Shown in pieces: positions 47,425-59,248 of a DNA stretch of 59,673 nucleotides. The notes below the pieces were generated by a model that was not told the origin of the DNA, did not search any database, and saw only the letters and a program-made list of their open reading frames with translations. A program made the position numbers and the translations under genes. Every line of letters begins with the position of its first letter. The stretch's first letter is position 1. Location of the stretch: the NCBI GenBank assembly GCA_027858345.1, contig JAQICX010000217.1, positions 1 to 59,673 on the forward strand. Direction: 5' to 3'. Source of the stretch: Kiritimatiellia bacterium. GTDB lineage: Bacteria > Verrucomicrobiota > Kiritimatiellia > JAQICX01.

Positions 47425-47499
47425 ATTTACACACGGTTTTGATTTGAAAACTAAATTTGTGAAAGCAATGATATAAAGTAACGTGCGGCACACTCTGCT

Positions 47500-47730
47500 G
47501 AGAGCAGGAACAAGCTTTGCTTGTATTTTATCTCCACGGGTTTACACCCGTGGCTACATGCTATCGCTCCTTCGGAGCTGTAATCTGAATGCTAACATGC
47601 AATATCACACCGTAAGAACTGAGAAGGCTATTCTTAAAGCGATTTAAACTTGTGTTGCCATAGGTCTTGCATATATTGCTCTTTGTTAAGAAGCAATATC
47701 AATGCAAGGCCTAATGGCAACACATTCTTC
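47500..47730 (+). repeat. Left copy of ~235-bp inverted repeat around the sigma/vWA/giant locus
   Basis: GAGCAGGAACAAGCTTTGCT, GATTTTATCTCCACGGG-type words, then CCACGGGTTTACACCCGTGG hairpin, CTCCTTCGGAG hairpin, and the AAGCGATTTAAAC to TGTGTTGCCAT...ATGGCAACACA hairpin. The same series, inverted, is at 58479-58716. Confidence 0.88.
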
Positions 47731-47740
47731 AAAAATTCGG

Positions 47741-48045
47741 GTTAATTAGCTAAATTCGCTGACGAAGACTCTTCTTCTTTGCGTCCCTTTGCGTTCTTTG
47801 CGGTTAATACTCTTTCTTTTTGCCTGCTCTTTAATCTGTGTAAATCATCTTAATCTGCGGATAAAACATTTTCCGTGTTTTCAGTGTATTCCGTGGTTAA
47901 AAATCTTCTTTCTCTGCGTTCTCTGTGCCTCTGCGCGAGAAAATTCTTCTCTTTTTTCCTTGCGACTTTGCACCTTTGCGTTAAAACTCTCTTCTTAATC
48001 TGCGTTCATCTGCGTCATCTGCGGATAAAAATTCTTTGGTTGCAA
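47741..48045. repeat. Phrase-repeat block upstream of the ECF sigma gene
   Basis: Internal quasi-tandem words: CTTTGCGTCC, CTTTGCGTT, CTTTGCGGTTAA; TTCCGTGTTTTCAGTGTATT; CTCTGCGTTCTCTGTGCCTC; CTGCGTTCATCTGCGTCATC then TGCGGATAAA. Open frames here are not genes. A short inverted counterpart lies at 58389-58470. Confidence 0.75.
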
Positions 48046-48072
48046 AAAAAATGAAAAAAAGTTATCATTTTG

Positions 48073-48100
48073 GGAACAAAAGGAAAACTCAAAACGTCTT
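48073..48100 (+). promoter_or_regulatory. ECF-type promoter of the sigma factor operon
   Basis: GGAAC at 48073-48077, 17 bp, CGTCTT at 48095-48100, matching the general ECF pattern (GGAAC, 16-17 bp, CGTC). It is the only such site seen between the left inverted repeat and the sigma gene, and implies autoregulation. Transcription would begin about 14 bases before the ATG at 48120. Confidence 0.75.
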
Positions 48101-48119
48101 AGGGGCAAATTGATCAATA

Positions 48120-48734
48120 ATGAACTGGGAACACAACATTGTGAATTCACAAACGACAACTGATATATCCATAGGAATGGGGGCTGCAGAGCTTCTCAAG
48201 GATATTTATGGCAAGCGTCATTTGGGCGATGATGATATGCGACAAATAATTCGCGCATATGAATCATGCCTACTTCGCTATGCTCAGAGGTTTGTAAATG
48301 ATCATAACAGTGCAGAGGATGTTGTACAGGACACATTTATTAAACTTTTTAGGTCGTGGAGTTCCATAAAGGATAGAGCAACAAACTTGAAAAGTTGGCT
48401 CTACAGAGTGGCGCACAACCAGGCAGTTGATCTTATTAGAAAAGAGCAGAACTATCGCAAGGCAATGGAAAACCATGGAGAAGACTTGCTAAACAAGGAA
48501 GACAATAGTTCTGACGAGGCAAGAAAACAAAAGAAGAAAGAGCTTGTCTTAAAGCAAGTGGACAAATTGAGTCCGGCAGAAAAAGAGGTGCTGCTGCTCC
48601 GACTTGAAGAAGAATTGAGTTATAAAGAAATTAGTGAAATCACAAACCGAGCAGTTGGAAACGTTGGAAAGCTCTTACATAGAGCAGTTGGGAAGATTAC
48701 AAGAGAATTAAAAACACAGGGGATAATACAATGA
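48120..48734 (+). CDS. ECF-family RNA polymerase sigma factor
   Basis: 204 residues. Region 2 is at about 45-110 (YAQRFVNDHNSAEDVVQDTF, and LKSWLYRVAHNQAVDLIRKE). A charged linker follows, then region 4 at about 140-200 (LSPAEKEVLLLRLEEELSYK and AVGNVGKLLHRAVGKITREL). The N-terminal 35 residues extend beyond the usual ECF start, and a second in-frame ATG lies at 48177, so the true start is uncertain. It directs RNA polymerase to GGAAC/CGTC-type promoters; one lies right upstream. The stop overlaps the anti-sigma start (ATGA), the classical arrangement of an ECF sigma and its anti-sigma factor. Confidence 0.92.
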   Translation: MNWEHNIVNSQTTTDISIGMGAAELLKDIYGKRHLGDDDMRQIIRAYESCLLRYAQRFVNDHNSAEDVVQDTFIKLFRSWSSIKDRATNLKSWLYRVAHNQAVDLIRKEQNYRKAMENHGEDLLNKEDNSSDEARKQKKKELVLKQVDKLSPAEKEVLLLRLEEELSYKEISEITNRAVGNVGKLLHRAVGKITRELKTQGIIQ

Positions 48735-51724
48735 AGAAATGTGAAGATATACAATTTTTGTTGACTCTTTATGCTCTTGATAATCTAGGGGGCGTATCAA
48801 AACAGGAAGTTTCAAAACACCTTGAAGAGTGCAAGAAGTGCCAAAAAGAATTTGAAGAAATAAAACAGGGGCTAACAGTAATTAATGATGTATTGAAAGA
48901 TACAAGCGTTGACGACCAGCACCTTAGCGAAGAGCGCTATGATGCAATTATTAGAGCATCAAAAATTAAGAAATCCACAGGGCTTGGTTGGATAACAAAA
49001 TATCGACCAGCACTGGGAATTGCAGCAAGCACACTTGTTGTCTTTGGTCTGACCTGGGCAATTGTTTCAAGCATGAAGGCTCCAAAATTAATGAAACTTG
49101 AAGAAAACGTTGGTGCTGTGAGTATGAGAGGCGGGTATGAAGACTCTTTAGAAAGCGCAGATGAAGTTGCTATGCTTGAAGACCCCCAAGCCATCGATGT
49201 TGTTTTTGACTCGTCCGTCGATATGCAAAGTCCAGATAAAGAGTTTGTACTAGATGAAAGCTTACTTTATGACGATGACGGCGTTGATTACAGTGATGCT
49301 ACTGCTCCTGCATACCAAGTTGAGAAAAAGGTTGCATTTAAGAAATCCGCACTAACTCAAAACAACAACAGAAAGGCTAAACCAGCAAAGGCAATGAGCA
49401 GCTTGCCAGAACCTACACAACCTAACTATGGTTATGTGGATGCGGATATTAAAGGCAATCTAAAAAGAGATAACAAACCTCAAAGTGCAGCAGTTAAAGA
49501 GATCGATGCAGTAGCCATAACTACATCACCTATCATTCAAAATAAAACATACTCCAGTCGATCTCGTGGTGACCGGGCACAATTAATTTCGCCAGAAAGC
49601 CCTGAACCTGTAGAGATAGAGAAAAAAACACTTGCGAAAGCTGAAGGTAACTCCCTAAAAAATAAAAAGAATCTACGTGAAGAGAATAAATCAGACAAAC
49701 AAGTTCAAACTTCGCAAACTGTAGCAAGAGAAAGTCTATCAAGACGTTCAAAAGAGGTTAGAAAAAAGGAAGTTTGGAAAGATAGTGATTCATTCAGTTC
49801 AACAGAGGGTCAAAACAAAAATGTATCCTTTGGTGTAAGTATTTCTGGAAAAACAACTGGAGGCCTCATATCAGAACAACATACGGAGTTGTCGAAGTCA
49901 TCTACAGCCGACCATGAGCAAAAGCCAATTTATGAAATGCAAGAAGCTGCAGCAGTTGAAGCGGGCAATGACAAAATTGTTCTTTATGATAATGCAGAAA
50001 AGACAGCTGAGCCAATCAGTTACTTTAGCAGGGATGAAGCAAAGGATGGACTTGATAAGAAGTCTTTAAAACTTGCAAGCAAACCGGAAATCAAAAATCA
50101 GGCGGAACAACTCCAGGATAAGAGTGAAGTTTTAGATGATTTTGAAGATGCTCCGACAGATGCAGAAACAGAAACTGTAATGACAGAGAACATCACTCCT
50201 GCAAATCAACCTTTAGAAGGTGCGCAATACGAAAAAATGCGAGAAAAAGAAGAAATTTGTGAAGAAATTGAAGTAGTATCTGAGGTTTTGGCGGACGAAA
50301 AAGATGTTGGTGACGAAATTGTTACCCGTCAATCAATGATCCAGGCAACTGGTGTGAATCCATATGTCCAGACGGTTGAAAATGCATTCTCAACATTCTC
50401 AATTGATGTGGATACAGCATCGTATAACCTATCTAGAAGATACATGCTGGCTGGACTTCTGCCACCACCAGAAATGGTAAGAACAGAAGAATTTGTGAAC
50501 TCATTCGATTATCACTACGTTCCTGCAGCAAGTCAGACTTTCAGAATTTACACAGACATTGCTCCATCGCCATTTGCTCATGGACAATATATGATGAGAA
50601 TTGGAGTCAAAGGCAAACGACTCGGACGTGAAGAGATGAAACAGGCAGTGCTGACATTTCTTGTTGACACATCAGGCAGCATGAAACGTGCAGACAGAAT
50701 TGGCTTAATCAAACAATCACTGAAATTCCTGCTGGAACAGCTAGGCGAAAACGACAAAGTTGCAATTGTTCAATATGGAACAAAGGCAAGACTTGTTCTA
50801 GAACACACAGAGGTCAAGAATATTGACACAATATTAAATGCAATTGATTCTCTACAATGTGGTGGAGCAACAGATCTTGAAGATGGAATGTTGCTTGCAT
50901 ACAAAGTTGCGGCCGATGGATACGTGAACAATGCAGAAAACAAAGTATTGCTGCTTTCTGACGGGGTTGCAAACATTGGGGAAGGCATCGCAGAGAGCAT
51001 ACTTGAAAAAATCAGACCATACATTAAACAGGGAATCACCTGTTCAATTTATGGATTTGGCATTGGCAACTATGATGATGCAATGCTCGAGAAACTTGCA
51101 AACAAAGGCAATGGCATATATGCATACGTCGGCAATCTGACTGATGCAAAACAGATTTTCTCGGAAGAGTCTGCATCGACATTGAACTTAATTGCATCAG
51201 ATGTCAAAATTCAGGTTGAGTTTTCACCAAGTATCGTCAAACAGTATCGTCAGCTTGGATATGAAAACAGATTGCTTACACAGCAGGACTTTAGAAATGA
51301 TACTGTTGATGCTGGAGAAATCGGAAGTGGACAAGCGGTAACAGCTCTTTACGAAATGGAACTTGAAGAAAACAAGCCAATGGATCCATGGCGCAACAGT
51401 GCTGCGGGCTTGCACTCTGGTGACGTTCTGGCAATTGTTAGAGTCAGATACAAAGATATCAACACTAAGGAAATTATCGAAATTGAACAGAAAGTTCGTA
51501 CAAGAGACATCAAAAATTCATTTGAAGGAATGCCAGTTGATTATCGTCTGGCAGTGGGTGTAGCTGAATTTGCGGAACAACTACGTGGAAGTCCATACGC
51601 AAATAATAGTTTCAGAGATATCTCTAAGGTTATTGATCCGGTAGCCCAGGAACTACCTCTCGACAAAAAAGTTCAGCAACTTAAGAATTTCATTCAGTAT
51701 GCACCGGGCTGGCAGAGCCAGTAG
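48731..51724 (+). CDS. Anti-sigma factor fused to YfbK-type von Willebrand A protein
   Basis: 997 residues. The N-terminal zinc-binding anti-sigma domain shows His30-x3-Cys34-x2-Cys37 (KHLEECKKCQ). One membrane helix lies at about 92-113 (LGIAASTLVVFGLTWAIVSS). A 400-residue charged, low-complexity stretch follows, then the YfbK module: N-terminal part near 535-620 (NAFSTFSIDVDTASYNLSRR), vWA domain with MIDAS DTSGS near 646 plus LSDGVANIGEG, and the YfbK C-terminal region (IQVEFSPSIVKQYRQLGYEN). The cytosolic end should hold the sigma factor and the external vWA end could sense a ligand or partner. The 4-bp overlap with the sigma gene implies stoichiometric translation. Confidence 0.9.
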   Translation: MKKCEDIQFLLTLYALDNLGGVSKQEVSKHLEECKKCQKEFEEIKQGLTVINDVLKDTSVDDQHLSEERYDAIIRASKIKKSTGLGWITKYRPALGIAASTLVVFGLTWAIVSSMKAPKLMKLEENVGAVSMRGGYEDSLESADEVAMLEDPQAIDVVFDSSVDMQSPDKEFVLDESLLYDDDGVDYSDATAPAYQVEKKVAFKKSALTQNNNRKAKPAKAMSSLPEPTQPNYGYVDADIKGNLKRDNKPQSAAVKEIDAVAITTSPIIQNKTYSSRSRGDRAQLISPESPEPVEIEKKTLAKAEGNSLKNKKNLREENKSDKQVQTSQTVARESLSRRSKEVRKKEVWKDSDSFSSTEGQNKNVSFGVSISGKTTGGLISEQHTELSKSSTADHEQKPIYEMQEAAAVEAGNDKIVLYDNAEKTAEPISYFSRDEAKDGLDKKSLKLASKPEIKNQAEQLQDKSEVLDDFEDAPTDAETETVMTENITPANQPLEGAQYEKMREKEEICEEIEVVSEVLADEKDVGDEIVTRQSMIQATGVNPYVQTVENAFSTFSIDVDTASYNLSRRYMLAGLLPPPEMVRTEEFVNSFDYHYVPAASQTFRIYTDIAPSPFAHGQYMMRIGVKGKRLGREEMKQAVLTFLVDTSGSMKRADRIGLIKQSLKFLLEQLGENDKVAIVQYGTKARLVLEHTEVKNIDTILNAIDSLQCGGATDLEDGMLLAYKVAADGYVNNAENKVLLLSDGVANIGEGIAESILEKIRPYIKQGITCSIYGFGIGNYDDAMLEKLANKGNGIYAYVGNLTDAKQIFSEESASTLNLIASDVKIQVEFSPSIVKQYRQLGYENRLLTQQDFRNDTVDAGEIGSGQAVTALYEMELEENKPMDPWRNSAAGLHSGDVLAIVRVRYKDINTKEIIEIEQKVRTRDIKNSFEGMPVDYRLAVGVAEFAEQLRGSPYANNSFRDISKVIDPVAQELPLDKKVQQLKNFIQYAPGWQSQ

Positions 51725-52054
51725 GCTGGCGTTGCCAGCAGGTAAAGATTAAGATTGAGGTTAAGGTTAAGAAAATACCCCTCCCACCTCGCAGGCGAGG
51801 TGACCTCCCCTAAAAGCGGGAGGAGTTTTGGCGGACTTGCGGTTGTCGTGTAGTCCAGTTGTCATGTAGTCCAGTTGCTTGATGAAATCAACGCTTAACA
51901 ATTTTTTAGTCTAGCGTCTTGAGTCATGAGTCGTGAGTCAAAGCAACGGTCTAACGGACTAACTGTCTAACAGTCTAACTGATAAACAGTCTAACCGTCC
52001 AACTGTCTAACAATCTAACGGACTAACTGTCTAACTAAATTAAAAGGAAAAACC
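51725..52054. other. Leader of the giant gene: repeat words and octamer array
   Basis: 51725-51945 contains TAGGCTGGCGTTGCCAGCAG, period-6 words (TTAAGATTGAGGTTAAGG), CCTCGCAGGCGAGGTGACC and GTAGTCCAGTTG words. No promoter or ECF site was seen. A ribosome site AAAAGGA precedes the ATG at 52055. The octamer array is listed separately. Confidence 0.6.
51946..52033 (+). repeat. Octamer array, 11 units of ACNGTCTA, in the leader of the giant gene
   Basis: 88 bp, exactly 11 x 8: ACGGTCTA, ACGGACTA, ACTGTCTA, ACAGTCTA, ACTGATAA, ACAGTCTA, ACCGTCCA, ACTGTCTA, ACAATCTA, ACGGACTA, ACTGTCTA. It ends 21 bp before the start codon. Confidence 0.92.
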
Positions 52055-55000
52055 ATGAAGAAAATAATAATGATGATGGTGCTGGCAATGATTGGCACAA
52101 GAATGAATGCACAGGTTGTTGAAGATTTTACACTAACAGGTGAAATTGCTGGTGAGAACATTTCATTTGATATGAGCTTTCAGGTTTCGGATATAGATCG
52201 AGATGGCAGCCTTCAGTTGATTAGTGGTGATGTTGCTTATCTTAGCGGCAATTTTCCTAAACACACAAAACTTGAGAGAAATCAAACTGGTTTCTCCCTG
52301 CTGTTTGAAAGAGGAGTGAGACTTGGACGACCTGTTGATATACAATTTTCCTTTGCAAGCCGTGCCAAGCATGATGGTGACCACCGTGTAACAGAATTTG
52401 AGATTCCTGGAGCGACCGTGAGAAACATTGATGTCATTTGCGATCGTTCTGATTTGGATATTGAGTTTCCAGGAGCACTGAACATTCAAAGAACGACAAA
52501 TGCACAACAGAAAACTGTTGTGAAAGCAAATATCGGTTCAGGTAACAAGTTTCAAGTTCGCTGGAAGCCTCAGTTAAAACAGCTGACAACAGAATTGGCA
52601 GCATCTTGCGATGTGAACACAATTGCAGTTGCAAGCGTTGGTGTTTTGCAGCTAAACAATATCTTCACATTTAATGTTATACAGGGAGAAATTCAGGAAT
52701 TCAAACTAGATCTGCCAGACGACATAAGTATTACTCGAGTCACGGGCAATGACATTCAGGACTGGCAACTTTTGAAAGAAGATAATAAATCCCTGCTGCA
52801 GGTTCGTCTTTCACATCCTTGTGAAGATCGCTATACACTGATTGTTGAATCAGAACAAATCTTATCAACCCTTCCATGTGACACATCACTTCCAATCATA
52901 AAACCACGTGGTATGATCAGAACAGGTGGTTTCTTATTGCTTGGAACAGATAATGCACTGAAACTCAATATAGAAAAGGCTGGCGGTTTAACCCAAATAG
53001 ACCAAAGTGGATTCATTGTGGACAAACTCATGCAGCAATATATGCCAAAACGCAAATTATATGCATATCAATATGCAAATCTTCCATTCAATCTTGACGT
53101 AAAAATTGATAACATTGTGACAACAATGGATGTTGAAAACTATAGCATTGTTCGCTACACAGAGAGTGAAACAACAATGGATATATCTCTTGAATTAGAT
53201 GTCAAAGATGCACCTGTTTCATCCATTACAGCAAAAATACCAGATAGCGAAGGTTGGATTGTAACATCAATCACTGGACAAAAAGTTGCAGAGATGGACT
53301 CGGATGTCAGAAAAGAAAAAAATGGTCATATTATACATATTCCATTTTCAACTCCACTACTTGGAACAAGCATTGTTAAGGTCAAGCTTGAAAGATCAAC
53401 AGAGTCTGGCGAAGAGTTCAGCATACCAACTTTAAAAATTGAAGATACAAGAAACGAGAGTGGTTATCTAATTGTTGCGGCAGAAAAAGGGGTTCAGCTA
53501 AAGACAGTCAAAGCAGATAATTTAAGAGAGATACATGCTGGATCAAGCCCTATTAATGTTGTTGATGCACAAAAAGCATATCGCTTCAAAGCAGCAGACT
53601 GGGCAATTAGCCTTCTGGCTGACAAAACAAAATCAGCAGTTCACTGCGAAGCATTTCATCTGATCTCTTTAGGTGAAGGGGTTTCATATAGCAGTATTGC
53701 ATTCACATATCACATTGGTGGTTCCCCTCTGCAAGAGCTATCACTAAAAATACCTAAGAATATTGAAGAATTTGAAGTCACAGGTTCAGGCGTTGATTCA
53801 TGGAAAAAAGAGGGAGATCTTTGTAAGGTTAAACTTCAATCAAGAATCATGGGCGACTACACACTGCTGGTGACATACGACGGACAATTTGACTACCGCG
53901 GTGGAAAGATAGAAATTGGCGGAATTGAGTCTGTAGACACAGAAAGTGAAGTTGGCTACCTTGTTGTCTCAAGTGCAGCAGCACTACAGATCTCTAATAC
54001 CGGAACACTCCCCTCTTCTGTAATTGATATCAGTCGTGAAGAACTACCTGCTGAATATGCTGCTCCAGTTACAGCACCAATTCTTAAAGCATACAAATAC
54101 ACTCAGAAACCTCACGATTTTCAGATTGATATAACGCCTCTTAAAACAGAAATGCTGCTCACACAGCTTGCTGATTACATTAGTTTAAACACAAAAATCG
54201 GAAGTCGTGGCGGAGTCGAAACAACTGTTACATACTTCTTGAAAAATACATCAAGACAATTTCTCATTATCAAACCTCCTGCTGGCGCAAAACCATGGCA
54301 CGCAAGAGAGAAAATGACTGATGGAACATTCAAAAACATCATCATGCAGGAAAAAGACGGCAACTGGCTGCTTCCTGTTGATCGACCAAGGGACCCGGAT
54401 CAAATCATCACTGTTCAGGTTACCTATGCACAGACGGTTAAAAAACCTGGTCTGTTAAGTTCAGGAATAAAGGGCATTAAACTTGAAGCACCACAACTAC
54501 CTGAAACAGATGCTGTTTTTGCCGGATGGCAAATTTCCGTTCCTGAAGAATATGCAGTTTCATTAAAATCAGGCAACATGTCAGACGGCTCCAACCTTCC
54601 GGGTGGGTTATATGGCACATTTATTAAATGCAGAAGAATCTTATATGCATTTAATTCTCGCTACTACACAATTAACAAGGCAATGAAGAGCGGCATTGGT
54701 GAACCAAAAACCATTAACCTGACCAGAACAGTCAATATTGCCGATGGAATACCACCGACAGTCAGTTTATATGTTGTGCCAAACTGGATGGGTGGATCCG
54801 GCTCATTTCTTGATTTGCTGATATGGTCAATCTTTGGCTTTATTGCACTAGTTTTTGGAATCTTTGCAAAAAGAAAAATCATAATAGCATTTGGAACAGC
54901 TGCAATTCTAATTGGTATATCTGAGTCATCCTTGGGTCGCTCAATTGCTGCCGCACTTATTATGATTGCCATATTAACCGTCATCATTAAAATTGCATTG

Positions 55001-58000
55001 ATGTTGCTGAAAAAAAGAAAAAAATCAAAGAAGAAACGCAGTAAGAAACGTAACAAAAAAGCATCTAACAAAATAGAAACAGAAGAAGAGTTCTTTGATG
55101 ATCTTGATATCATTGATAAACCATCTGATAAAGATGGTTATATTTCAACAAAATATCTACTCGTCATCACTAGTGCACTCGTTATACTTTCAACAGCAAT
55201 TGCATCTTCGGCAAAAGAGCAGCAGATGCCTCAACAACAAAAACCACTACCTCAGACTGTTATTGATGATGTTAAATTTGACTTGACCGTTTCAAAGAAA
55301 ACAACTGAAGAAGAACCAAGCATCACTGCAAACATCAGATATCAGTTTGAGCTTGAAGACGAAGAGAACATCAGACTCTTTTCAGACAAATACGTCATCA
55401 CTGGTTACAAATCAAACTCAAAACATGTAAGAATTGAACTAATCAACGGCATATATACAGCCATATTACCGGACGATGGCAAATATACAATAGATGTTGA
55501 ATGTCATATCCCAGTTAAATCTGAAAATGAACTCAACAAAACAGTGCTCGAACTGCCAGATAATATGCACAATCAAGTCACAATTACAATTCCGCAAAAG
55601 AATCTCAACATCAAAGCCGACCAGGCAGTGCTGTTTGAGTCAAAAGAAAGTGGTGACACTTCTGTTGCAAATGCTGTTTTTGGCAACGAAAAAGAGGTGA
55701 CATTGAGCTGGCAGCCAAGACAACGCATTAGAGAACTTGAAAAAACGGTTATATTTGCAGAAGTCAATTCAATGGCAACTGTAAAGTCGGGTGTCCTTGA
55801 AGTGCTTCACAATGTTGAATGTCTAATTGTACAAGGAGAATGCCAATCTCTTGAACTTCAGATTCCAGCGGGTATGAATGTCACATCTGTGACAGCGAAG
55901 GATCTTGCAATATGGCGTTTTGATCCCATAAGCAGAAAACTTGATACCGTTTTCAGTAAGCCACAAACCGGCACACAAACTGTTTTGATTAACACACAGA
56001 TTGCTGTTGATGGCTTACCATACGATGTCACATTTGGCGTACCTGTTCTAAACAATGTTGATCGACAAAGAGGTTTCGTTGCCATAATATCCGCTCCAAT
56101 TGTTCAGACAAGAGTCATAAAAAATATATCTCTAAGCCCAATGAACAAAGATGATTTCGCATTTAGTAAATTTCAGGCATGCCAATCACCAGATAATTTC
56201 ATGATGGCAAAGACATTTAGATATCATGAGGCTGATAAAGTAAGCATGACAATTAACGCAGAAAAAGTTTTGCCGGAAATTCGTGCAATTGAAACAAGCA
56301 GCATGTCTATTGCTGATGACAAGTTTGAAATATCCAGCAGAATTGAATTAAAAATAACCAAAGCAGGTATCTTTGAAATAGACCTGTTAATACCACAAAG
56401 CTTTGAGCTTGAAACCTTGACAGGAAAAGATGTCAGCCATTGGGATGATATGAAAAGTACAAACGGCATGCGTCAGGTTAAAGTAAATTTTTCTAAACGT
56501 CTTGAAGGAGATACCACTGTTAACTTGCTGGCAACTCGCATGATTAACGAGATTGAAAAAACTTTCTATATTCCTAAAATTGAAATTCAGGAAGCACGCA
56601 AACATACAGGCAGAGTAACTGTCATTGCAGAAAAAGGTGTTCGCCTGAACATTTTGGAACACGAAGGTGTTGACATCAGAAAAGCCAAAGAGGTTGAAGT
56701 TTATCAAAGTGGAGCACTGGTATTCGATATCCTTAGACAAAACTGGACAGTTGAGCTGCAAAGCGAAGTTCTCAATCCAATCATTAAACCAGAAGTTCTT
56801 CAATGGGTTGACCTGGAAGAAGGAATACTGCAATACAATGCATACATAAAATACCAAATTGAAAATGCAGGTGTAAAACAGTTCCAGATTAAATGTCCGG
56901 ACACAGAAGCATCACTGACTATCACAGGACGAGGAATTGCAAGTGTCAACAAACTCAAAGGTACAAATGGAATCTGGCAGGTAAACCTAAATGGAAAAGT
57001 AGAGAACGACTACAACCTCAGAGCAACTTGGCAAATTCCATATGATAACGAGGAAAAACGAGTGAACATTGAGTCTCTCCAAACGCTGAACACATACGAC
57101 CAACGTGGATACCTTGTTATTACATGCGATGGAAGAATCCAAGTTGAATCAGAGATAGAGCCAGTTGGACTGAAACTTGAAGATGCAAGAAATATTCCAT
57201 CAAACTTTGGCTCACAGGATCTGTCCGATGCAATTCTCTGCTATCGTACCCTACGCACAAAATTCAACCTGCCTCTAATAGTGACAAGAAATGATGCGGC
57301 AAAGGTATTGCCGGCACAGATTGATAGTGTGACACTATTTTCTGTTCTTTCAGAGGATCAAAAAGCAATAACTTCACTAGAAGCCAAAATACAGGTTGGA
57401 GATCTGAACTTTCTTAAAGTAAAACTACCGGGAGATGGCAAACTTTGGACCGTGCTGGTAGACGAACAGGAAGTCTCCGTCTCACGCGAAGGCGAATTTT
57501 ACTGCATTCCTCTGGAACAGATCAGCAGCGATGAACCAATGAATGTATCCTTCTCCTACTCAGGAAAATTTGAAATCAACAAACGTGGTTACAAAATTGA
57601 TGTTCCAACATTCCAGGAGTTGCCGATGCGCGATATCACATGGAACCTCTACATTGACAGCGATGCCAAATGCTATGACTTTGGGGGCACAATGGAGTAT
57701 GTGAAAACAGACAAAAACAACTACTACTTTGACTCTAGAAACTACATATCAAAAAATCAGGAAAAACAGAAAGCAAACATCTTGAAAGCTCAGGAAATCC
57801 TGAACAAGGGTGAAAAGATGATGCAGCAAGGCGACTCAACAGGTGCACGAAAAGCATTTGAACAGGCATACAACTATTCACTAGGTAAAAAAGCTCTGAA
57901 CGAAGACGCAAGAGTTCAACTGAGAAATATTTCCAAACAGCAGATCAAAGTTGGTCTATTCAACAGACGTCAAGCTGTGCGATATGACAACAACATTGCC

Positions 58001-58384
58001 GTCGAACCAGCTCAACAGGAGTGGCAGCAGAAAATCAGTCAGCAGGCTGCAAACAATGCCGACCTGAACTTCACCGAAGAACAGGTTCGCCAAATTGAAG
58101 CAGAACTCGCTGATGAGAACGATGCTTTTGATCTTGTTGCCGACAAGATGGTTGACCAGCAGGCAGCCGCGTCAGCTGTTATAAAAGGGCTACAGGTAAC
58201 ACTGCCTACACATGGCAAACATATGCAGTTCAGAAGAGACCTGCAGATCAATCCTAAAAGCCAGTTGACTGTGGAATTCAAAATTCAGAAAATCAACATT
58301 GGTGGTTATCTATTGAAAATCATTGCACTGCTGATATTGACAGCCTGCATATTTGCCATCTCACTCATCTTCAGAAAAAAATAA
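52055..58384 (+). CDS. Giant two-part beta-rich membrane protein of unknown function
   Basis: 2109 residues. A signal peptide (MKKIIMMMVLAMIGTRMNA) is followed by beta-rich modules to about 900, hydrophobic helices at about 913-982, then a lysine-rich stretch (985-1007). A second signal-peptide-like segment at 1028-1052 (YLLVITSALVILSTAIASSA) precedes another beta-rich half. The halves match: VIQGEIQEFKLDLPDDISIT with VQGECQSLELQIPAGMNVTS, and SGYLIVAAEKGVQLK with TGRVTVIAEKGVRLN. Near the C-terminus come a TPR-like helical patch (about 1900-1950) and a final membrane helix (2084-2105). Start supported by AAAAGGA. Probably an envelope effector or receptor of the sigma/anti-sigma pair upstream. 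No function recognised. Confidence 0.8.
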   Translation: MKKIIMMMVLAMIGTRMNAQVVEDFTLTGEIAGENISFDMSFQVSDIDRDGSLQLISGDVAYLSGNFPKHTKLERNQTGFSLLFERGVRLGRPVDIQFSFASRAKHDGDHRVTEFEIPGATVRNIDVICDRSDLDIEFPGALNIQRTTNAQQKTVVKANIGSGNKFQVRWKPQLKQLTTELAASCDVNTIAVASVGVLQLNNIFTFNVIQGEIQEFKLDLPDDISITRVTGNDIQDWQLLKEDNKSLLQVRLSHPCEDRYTLIVESEQILSTLPCDTSLPIIKPRGMIRTGGFLLLGTDNALKLNIEKAGGLTQIDQSGFIVDKLMQQYMPKRKLYAYQYANLPFNLDVKIDNIVTTMDVENYSIVRYTESETTMDISLELDVKDAPVSSITAKIPDSEGWIVTSITGQKVAEMDSDVRKEKNGHIIHIPFSTPLLGTSIVKVKLERSTESGEEFSIPTLKIEDTRNESGYLIVAAEKGVQLKTVKADNLREIHAGSSPINVVDAQKAYRFKAADWAISLLADKTKSAVHCEAFHLISLGEGVSYSSIAFTYHIGGSPLQELSLKIPKNIEEFEVTGSGVDSWKKEGDLCKVKLQSRIMGDYTLLVTYDGQFDYRGGKIEIGGIESVDTESEVGYLVVSSAAALQISNTGTLPSSVIDISREELPAEYAAPVTAPILKAYKYTQKPHDFQIDITPLKTEMLLTQLADYISLNTKIGSRGGVETTVTYFLKNTSRQFLIIKPPAGAKPWHAREKMTDGTFKNIIMQEKDGNWLLPVDRPRDPDQIITVQVTYAQTVKKPGLLSSGIKGIKLEAPQLPETDAVFAGWQISVPEEYAVSLKSGNMSDGSNLPGGLYGTFIKCRRILYAFNSRYYTINKAMKSGIGEPKTINLTRTVNIADGIPPTVSLYVVPNWMGGSGSFLDLLIWSIFGFIALVFGIFAKRKIIIAFGTAAILIGISESSLGRSIAAALIMIAILTVIIKIALMLLKKRKKSKKKRSKKRNKKASNKIETEEEFFDDLDIIDKPSDKDGYISTKYLLVITSALVILSTAIASSAKEQQMPQQQKPLPQTVIDDVKFDLTVSKKTTEEEPSITANIRYQFELEDEENIRLFSDKYVITGYKSNSKHVRIELINGIYTAILPDDGKYTIDVECHIPVKSENELNKTVLELPDNMHNQVTITIPQKNLNIKADQAVLFESKESGDTSVANAVFGNEKEVTLSWQPRQRIRELEKTVIFAEVNSMATVKSGVLEVLHNVECLIVQGECQSLELQIPAGMNVTSVTAKDLAIWRFDPISRKLDTVFSKPQTGTQTVLINTQIAVDGLPYDVTFGVPVLNNVDRQRGFVAIISAPIVQTRVIKNISLSPMNKDDFAFSKFQACQSPDNFMMAKTFRYHEADKVSMTINAEKVLPEIRAIETSSMSIADDKFEISSRIELKITKAGIFEIDLLIPQSFELETLTGKDVSHWDDMKSTNGMRQVKVNFSKRLEGDTTVNLLATRMINEIEKTFYIPKIEIQEARKHTGRVTVIAEKGVRLNILEHEGVDIRKAKEVEVYQSGALVFDILRQNWTVELQSEVLNPIIKPEVLQWVDLEEGILQYNAYIKYQIENAGVKQFQIKCPDTEASLTITGRGIASVNKLKGTNGIWQVNLNGKVENDYNLRATWQIPYDNEEKRVNIESLQTLNTYDQRGYLVITCDGRIQVESEIEPVGLKLEDARNIPSNFGSQDLSDAILCYRTLRTKFNLPLIVTRNDAAKVLPAQIDSVTLFSVLSEDQKAITSLEAKIQVGDLNFLKVKLPGDGKLWTVLVDEQEVSVSREGEFYCIPLEQISSDEPMNVSFSYSGKFEINKRGYKIDVPTFQELPMRDITWNLYIDSDAKCYDFGGTMEYVKTDKNNYYFDSRNYISKNQEKQKANILKAQEILNKGEKMMQQGDSTGARKAFEQAYNYSLGKKALNEDARVQLRNISKQQIKVGLFNRRQAVRYDNNIAVEPAQQEWQQKISQQAANNADLNFTEEQVRQIEAELADENDAFDLVADKMVDQQAAASAVIKGLQVTLPTHGKHMQFRRDLQINPKSQLTVEFKIQKINIGGYLLKIIALLILTACIFAISLIFRKK

Positions 58385-58478
58385 GAAGATTTAACGCAAG
58401 TGACGCAAATGATGCAATGTCGCAATGAAGATAATTTCTACCCACTGAAAACACGGAACACACAGAAAATGTTTTAAA
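58385..58478. repeat. Phrase block, inverse of part of 47741-48010
   Basis: TTAACGCAAGTGACGCAAAT and CACTGAAAACACGGAACACA are inverted counterparts of the CTTTGCG and TTCCGTGTTTTCAG words left of the sigma gene. No gene. Confidence 0.65.
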
Positions 58479-58716
58479 AGAATGTGTTGCCATTCACCTT
58501 TGGTCACATTGCTTTTGTTGTCACAAAGCAATATAACCAAAGGCAAATGGAACAACACATGTTAAATCGCTTTAAGAACAGCCTTCTCAGTGCTTACGGT
58601 GTGACATGGAACAATGCATGTTAGCATTCAGATTACAGCTCCGAAGGAGCGATAGCATGTAGCCACGGGTGTAAACCCGTGGAGATAAAATACAAGCAAA
58701 GCTTGTTCCTGCTCAC
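58479..58716 (-). repeat. Right copy of ~235-bp inverted repeat
   Basis: Inverse of 47500-47730: AGAATGTGTTGCCATTCACC with hairpin answer, AAATCGCTTTAAGAACAGCC, TTAGCATTCAGATTACAGCT, CCGAAGGAGCGATAGCATGT, CCACGGGTGTAAACCCGTGG, then AAGCTTGTTCCTGCTC. The inner hairpin loop differs between copies while the flanks are conserved. Confidence 0.88.
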
Positions 58717-59248
58717 AGCCGTGTATGCCGTAATTAGAAATGACAGTGTCCTGCATAGCTCACAGAGCGAAGCATGGAAGGCAAAATATAGCTGGCTTGC
58801 CAGTCCCGCAAAGCGGAGATTGGACACCGATACAGATTTGCCACTTTGTTGCTGTCGCAGGCTACAGTTTAAACTGAGAAACACTGCTCCCTGGCTGGTT
58901 TACTAGTCCCGCTCTGCGGGAGGGGCTGGACTGCGAAGCATAACTGCCTGCCGAGAGGCCTGTTCGCCATAGCTCGGAGAGCGACGGCTGGAAGACTGGA
59001 ACAGCGAAGGCTGGAGGGGTGCTCATCCGAAAAATTAAGGGTAAATGATAAAATAAAATATAATAATTGTCTTTATTAAGTCAAATTGCTAGAATACACA
59101 CAATAGAGTTTATAAAATTTTTACCGCACCGCAATAAAATGATTGCTTAAGCATAGTGCATAAATGTGCTCACTTCGAACTCATTGACAAATACTGCACT
59201 ACAAATGCGTGATGCAGATATTGAATTTAAAACCATATAGGATAAGCC
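58717..59248. repeat. Repeat mosaic before the RhuM gene
   Basis: Words CAGTCCCGCAAAGCGGAGAT near 58812, TAGTCCCGCTCTGCGGGAGG near 58904, GCTCGGAGAGCGACGGCTGG near 58973. At 59028-59042 CCGAAAAATTAAGGG is a leftover right end of the nested-palindrome element. 59043-59248 is AT-rich. No gene. Confidence 0.65.

Follow-up and report, generated by a model that had tools for sequence, protein, structure and literature searches.

A conserved three-gene unit of ECF sigma factor, vWA anti-sigma protein and giant duplicated membrane protein in Kiritimatiellia and related bacteria

Organization of the locus

The unit is composed of three genes on the same strand of the window, the 59,673-nucleotide stretch of Kiritimatiellia DNA analysed here. 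They encode an ECF sigma factor, a transmembrane vWA protein with an anti-sigma domain and a giant membrane protein (Table 1). All three reading frames lie at exactly the positions given in an earlier note on this DNA, which had been made from the sequence alone, and the sigma and vWA genes share the ATGA overlap that it described. At the right end of the window, a RhuM-family gene (PF13310, 59249-59671) runs off the edge.

The earlier note also saw inverted repeats outside the unit and took them as its boundaries. The repeats exist (116 nt at 97%, 46 nt at 93% and weaker arms), but a role as borders is ruled out by two observations: matches to fragments of the left arm number 73 in the same genome, and both arms contain Acido-Lenti-1 (RF01687; 43.9 bits, gathering value 37). 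The repeats are dispersed elements that flank the unit in opposite orientation by coincidence. Acido-Lenti-1 is a candidate RNA family (PMC2864571) and may be part of the dispersed repeat in this genome.

Table 1. Features of the three-gene locus and its flanks (window positions)
Feature	Positions	Strand	Basis
Left arm, dispersed genomic repeat; Acido-Lenti-1 RNA at 47534-47579 (+)	47486-47735		Repeat search, genome matches, Rfam; outside unit
Putative ECF promoter for autoregulation, GAAC-N17-CGTCTTA; 18 bp separate its end from the sigma ATG	48074-48101	+	Class-conserved motif; inferred
ECF sigma factor, 204 aa	48120-48734	+	Pfam PF04542 8.5e-19, PF08281 2.2e-13; TIGR02937 8e-29
Transmembrane anti-sigma / vWA / YfbK_C protein, 997 aa	48731-51724	+	ORF list, Pfam, alignment
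zf-HC2 (ZAS-type) anti-sigma domain, residues 4-38; HX3CX2C at residues 30-37	48740-48844	+	PF13490 3.9e-6, sequence
Single transmembrane segment, residues 94-112	49010-49066	+	Hydropathy
Predicted periplasmic vWF_A, VWA, YfbK_C	50342-51667	+	Pfam, alignment, sequence
Array of 11.5 imperfect copies of the octamer AACNGTCT, immediately upstream of the giant gene's start	51945-52036	+	Repeat search
Giant double beta-ladder membrane protein, 2109 aa	52055-58384	+	ORF, alignment, half-vs-half profile, domain comparison
N-half ectodomain, beta-sandwich domains N1-N5	52118-54610	+	AlphaFold2 mean pLDDT 89.3; domain comparison
Four predicted transmembrane segments (residues 918-936, 942-960, 967-985, 1035-1053) around Lys-rich loop	54806-55213	+	Hydropathy, positive-inside pattern
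C-half ectodomain, beta-sandwich domains C1-C5, paired one to one with N1-N5	55322-57691	+	AlphaFold2 mean pLDDT 87.2; domain comparison
Helical domain, second half only, then C-terminal transmembrane segment (about residues 2077-2095)	57719-58291	+	AlphaFold2, domain comparison, hydropathy
Right arm, same dispersed repeat; Acido-Lenti-1 at 58637-58682 (-)	58472-58730		Repeat search, genome matches, Rfam; outside unit

The sigma factor and the vWA protein

The sigma protein has the ECF architecture, with Sigma70_r2 and r4_2 as its only Pfam regions, separated by a short linker. The 997-residue product of the overlapping gene contains zf-HC2, vWF_A, VWA and YfbK_C domains (Pfam). Its HX3CX2C motif and membrane segment are those of a ZAS-type transmembrane anti-sigma factor, and the ATGA overlap and conserved gene order predict that it is co-transcribed with the sigma gene. 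The N-terminus would bind and inhibit the cognate sigma. These predicted domains and their topology fit the membrane anti-sigma protein with an external vWA domain that the earlier note had pictured.

The membrane segment and vWF_A are separated by a poorly conserved linker of ~420 residues. A LysM-like sequence is present in the linker of one relative (G018, L062:10493-12202), which fits a peptidoglycan-facing position. The VWA domain has a complete MIDAS (D646, S648, S650, T714 and D744), whose residues are invariant across the giant-linked vWA set, and is followed by a clear YfbK_C match (E 9e-42, Pfam). This combination of vWF_A, VWA with full MIDAS and YfbK_C places the protein in the YfbK family. 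Escherichia coli YfbK, which served as a positive control, has the same core; the version in the unit differs in being fused behind an anti-sigma domain and a membrane segment and in being coupled to a sigma gene.

Architecture of the giant protein

The giant protein has no significant match in Pfam or NCBIfam. It is an ancient internal duplication, in which two five-domain beta-sandwich ladders flank a membrane segment region. Profile comparison of the N- and C-terminal halves aligns 788 columns at 18% identity (E 4e-91, probability 100), bearing out the earlier description of the protein as a double one; the alignment of the giant comprised 13 full-length relatives. Domain-by-domain comparison matches each of the pairs N1-C1, N2-C2, N3-C3, N4-C4 and N5-C5 at 99% or more, and inside each half domains 2, 3 and 4 repeat a single type. 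The Lys-rich loop between the halves is preceded by three membrane segments and followed by the fourth. With these segments between the halves and a further one at the C-terminus, both ladders would face the periplasm, the compartment predicted for the vWA domain.

No sequence match assigns the giant to the alpha-2-macroglobulin (A2M) family, to adhesins or to any other named family, and Pfam and NCBIfam find no A2M, MG or bait-region domain in it. The fold neighbours retrieved by Foldseek, ribophorin I/Ost1 and integrin-alpha chains, have good E-values with TM-scores of only 0.1-0.3. We read them as generic beta-sandwich chains and not as homologues. Shorter relatives of the giant's domains occur in other gene contexts (L073, L074 and L075; 586-1167 aa, one of 2422 aa). 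One genome (G134) carries a second, longer giant frame of 2516 aa (L148:4448-11995), and the 2.6 kb ahead of it contain no vWA gene.

Conservation of the unit

Searches of genome contigs for homologues of the giant yielded nothing with the single protein as query and matches with the alignment. These lie mostly in Kiritimatiellae and Lentisphaerae MAGs, and also in the cultured Pontiella sulfatireligans F21 (locus L124) and in Pontiellaceae B1224; beyond these groups, matches were found in Planctomycetota GH22, a Phycisphaerae and a Roseibacillus MAG. The family is present in 65 of the 240 sampled genomes of the class (48/108 genera; six of the 65 matches are weak or partial) and in 71 of the 338 sampled genomes of the phylum (50/173 genera).

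The three genes are kept together across this range. Apart from the window, 54 non-duplicate loci have sufficient sequence ahead of the giant; they represent several classes in the phylum, with a single genome from the Planctomycetota. A same-strand vWA gene lies upstream of the giant in 50 of these loci and both the vWA and the sigma gene in 48. For the class itself, the 35 non-duplicate loci with at least 3.5 kb upstream include 33 with the vWA gene and 32 with both genes on the same strand; the 33rd locus (L094) is cut by a contig end before sigma. The corresponding counts for the 19 non-duplicate loci from other classes are 17 and 16, with one locus cut. One locus has the order vWA-sigma-giant (L093), and giants without a vWA neighbour are found at L072, L097, L258 and L262. 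The vWA and giant genes often lie within a few bases of each other, their frames being 4 nt apart in L114, L124 and L126, and the gene order persists where identity among giants is about 20-40%. Clustering of neighbouring genes recovers the giant in 57 loci, the vWA protein in 56 and sigma in 37, the last count reflecting sigma genes that ORF picking missed and profile search found. There is no other conserved neighbour among the clustered loci; the next family occurs in 6, which sets the bounds of the three-gene unit.

The vWA proteins that accompany a giant also group together. In the vWA tree, which was built by a quick method and has long branches flagged, the label 'giant adjacent' requires 3 changes against 17.1 expected from shuffling (0/500 shuffles as low), and a single group with full support unites 19 proteins, most of them giant-free. 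The earlier note had named two patterns that would speak against a unit, namely giant homologues never beside the sigma/vWA pair and a vWA gene always with a different partner. Neither is seen: the pair adjoins the giant in the great majority of loci, and giant-linked vWA proteins keep the giant. In giant-free lineages of the class, most of the examined loci have a sigma gene beside one for an anti-sigma-like vWA protein, indicating that the pair does not always need the giant. In Pontiellaceae B1224, both vWA types stand in tandem before the giant.

A shared promoter motif and candidate outputs

The sigma genes of the class share an upstream motif consisting of GAA[G/C] or AAAG, a 17-nt spacer and CGT[A/C]T, which resembles the AAC/CGT pattern of autoregulated ECF promoters (PMC8103513). 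As a regular expression, drawn up after inspection of the upstream sequences, the motif is found in 24 of 49 sigma upstream regions (2.05 in shuffles, 2 on the reverse strand); of 48 regions ahead of giants, 4 contain it (1.6 in shuffles). A simple AAC/CGT search gave no site before the sigma genes of other classes.

A weight matrix trained on the sigma promoters only, and then applied to the regions upstream of the giants, singles out four of them (L097, 26.0; L146, 19.6; L093, 15.5; L106, 13.1). None of 200 shuffles reaches these scores, and all other giants score below 7. The 4.2 kb before the giant at L097 hold no vWA gene, the giant at L146 is 2 kb away, that at L093 lies behind other genes and that at L106 is at a contig edge. 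The presence of a sigma-type promoter of their own before separated giants suggests that the giant is very probably an output of sigma. Of the roles that the earlier note had left side by side for this protein (ligand, scaffold or output), the promoter evidence favours the last. No promoter of its own was found before giants that directly follow the vWA gene, as expected for one transcript, nor before five that are displaced by >1 kb (L067, L094, L100, L111 and L116).

The genome from which the window comes has 3 sites of the strict pattern against 2 in the control, and no wider regulon is visible there. Across 18 genomes the pattern occurs at 29 sites against 17 in the reversed control, mostly chance, and only recurrent or gene-proximal sites were followed. 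One set of these marks another family of secreted proteins, about 2,130 aa long and without a Pfam or NCBIfam match (for example L181:2601-8999, L182:2661-9035 and L183:2177-8614). Of 13 upstream regions of this family, retrieved by a homologue search, 8 contain the motif at -75 to -102 with a score of at least 12 bits from the sigma-trained matrix, against none on the reverse strand and 0.15% of shuffles. Neither this family nor a VIT gene was found in the window's own genome.

Other sites lie before genes of different types. The motif precedes 2 of 21 VIT-vWA genes. At L184:7808-11234, a VIT-vWA gene lies 31 nt behind it and is followed by a laminin-G-like lectin gene; at L225, the motif stands before another VIT-vWA gene. 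In two related genomes (G053 and G062), an identical promoter-like site precedes a zinc-ribbon gene and then an A2M gene (L185:3049-9751 and L186:579-7273). Both this arrangement and the motif directly ahead of an A2M gene itself are single-genus cases. Since the strict total of 29 compares with 17 in the control, such cases are leads, not proof.

Proposed mechanism and alternative explanations

We interpret the locus as a three-component envelope-signalling unit of sigma factor, vWA anti-sigma protein and a giant that is the output and probably also the sensed element, and assign this reading a probability of roughly 0.6. The zinc-binding N-terminus of the vWA protein would hold the ECF sigma at the inner membrane, while the rest of the protein, spanning the membrane once, would show its vWA domain, with the metal-binding MIDAS, and its YfbK_C domain to the periplasm. 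The giant, anchored by about five membrane segments, would place its two ladders in the same space. A change sensed by the periplasmic part would set sigma free to act at the GAAC/CGTCT promoter of its own operon (sigma, vWA and giant); in relatives, genes for further large secreted proteins would be transcribed as well. The vWA domain would then read the state or abundance of the giant, closing a feedback loop. That the giant is what the vWA domain reads seems most likely because the linkage is constant, both are predicted to lie in one compartment and giant-linked vWA proteins form a group of their own. Gene order and its conservation, the domains, the duplication and the common motif are observed, whereas binding of sigma by the anti-sigma domain, the topology, contact between vWA domain and giant, and the trigger are inferred. 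Against this reading count the four giants with no vWA neighbour, the displaced giants with no promoter of their own, a promoter pattern that was drawn up after inspection and has no counterpart before the sigma genes of other classes, the absence of a wider regulon in the window's own genome and the sigma/vWA pairs of giant-free lineages.

The giant could instead be an effector only, a ladder that reinforces the envelope or resists proteases or toxins, carried along in the operon as sigma's chief target, while the vWA domain senses something else. We consider this rather unlikely, although several observations agree with it: the sigma-type promoter marks other large secreted proteins as well as the giant, the same motif stands in single or few relatives before a VIT-vWA gene and the zinc-ribbon/A2M pair, and the sigma/vWA pair occurs alone in giant-free lineages. 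Separation of the giant-linked vWA proteins into a well-supported group argues the other way, since adaptation of the vWA domain to the giant would produce it, but plain divergence would give the same tree.

Two further explanations concern how the genes came to lie together. Linkage by chance or neutrally, of three envelope genes each useful on its own, is very improbable: no other neighbour is kept, and the gene order has outlasted the divergence of the giants. Descent from one insertion of a mobile or composite element is, if anything, less probable still. Near-identical inverted repeats on both sides of the unit would suit such an element, but they are copies of the dispersed, Acido-Lenti-1-bearing repeat and not specific to its ends, none of the ORFs seen inside the unit encodes a transposase, and the same gene order recurs across distant genera and classes with different flanks.

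Extending the favoured three-component reading, we tentatively consider a phylum-wide envelope surveillance system, in which the anti-sigma-fused vWA domain might read stretch, cleavage or loading of the giant ladder through its MIDAS, and sigma might direct synthesis of more ladder and of other giant secreted, macroglobulin-like and VIT-vWA proteins. If true, this doubtful possibility would amount to a bacterial envelope-integrity or counter-attack regulon assembled from integrin- and macroglobulin-like parts.

Relation to known systems

The ECF sigma factor, the zinc anti-sigma domain and the YfbK-type vWA protein are already known parts. In the literature searched, which covered few subscription papers and may therefore have missed an earlier mention, neither the giant family nor the combination of the three genes turned up. 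The locus describes a signalling unit kept in several classes of the Verrucomicrobiota-Kiritimatiellota lineage and centred on a 2,100-residue family without a Pfam model. It would give a concrete role to vWA/YfbK_C proteins, whose function has been largely unknown, and tie ECF signalling to giant envelope proteins. Its function is testable in the cultured P. sulfatireligans F21.

In FecI/FecR or PupB-type signalling, the periplasmic part of a membrane anti-sigma protein reads an envelope partner that is itself a target of sigma. The working scheme proposed here is the same, with no sequence relation; where those systems use a TonB-dependent outer-membrane receptor as the partner, the unit has a double beta ladder that is predicted to be anchored in the membrane by helical segments and lacks any known domain. 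The unit also resembles pairs of ECF sigma and class I (ZAS) anti-sigma factors in its sigma2-sigma4 build, its zinc-finger anti-sigma protein with one membrane segment, predicted to be co-transcribed, and its putative AAC/CGT-like autoregulatory promoter (PMC8103513). It differs from these in its very large periplasmic vWA/YfbK_C sensor and its tightly linked third gene, and a vWA-type class is not mentioned in the ECF/anti-sigma papers searched.

MoxR-vWA ternary systems combine a vWA protein with a system-specific third component (PMC8195603), a composition that the unit shares. Unlike these cytoplasmic systems, the unit is predicted to act extracytoplasmically and has no MoxR AAA+ ATPase or EAD-type domain among its conserved neighbours, there being no further recurrent neighbour family. 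The likeness to A2M and inter-alpha-inhibitor (VIT-vWA) proteins lies in their long beta-sandwich chains; the fold similarity of the giant to these is weak, and Pfam finds neither an A2M nor a VIT domain in it. A second point of contact is the promoter motif of the unit, which stands before A2M and VIT-vWA genes in a few relatives.
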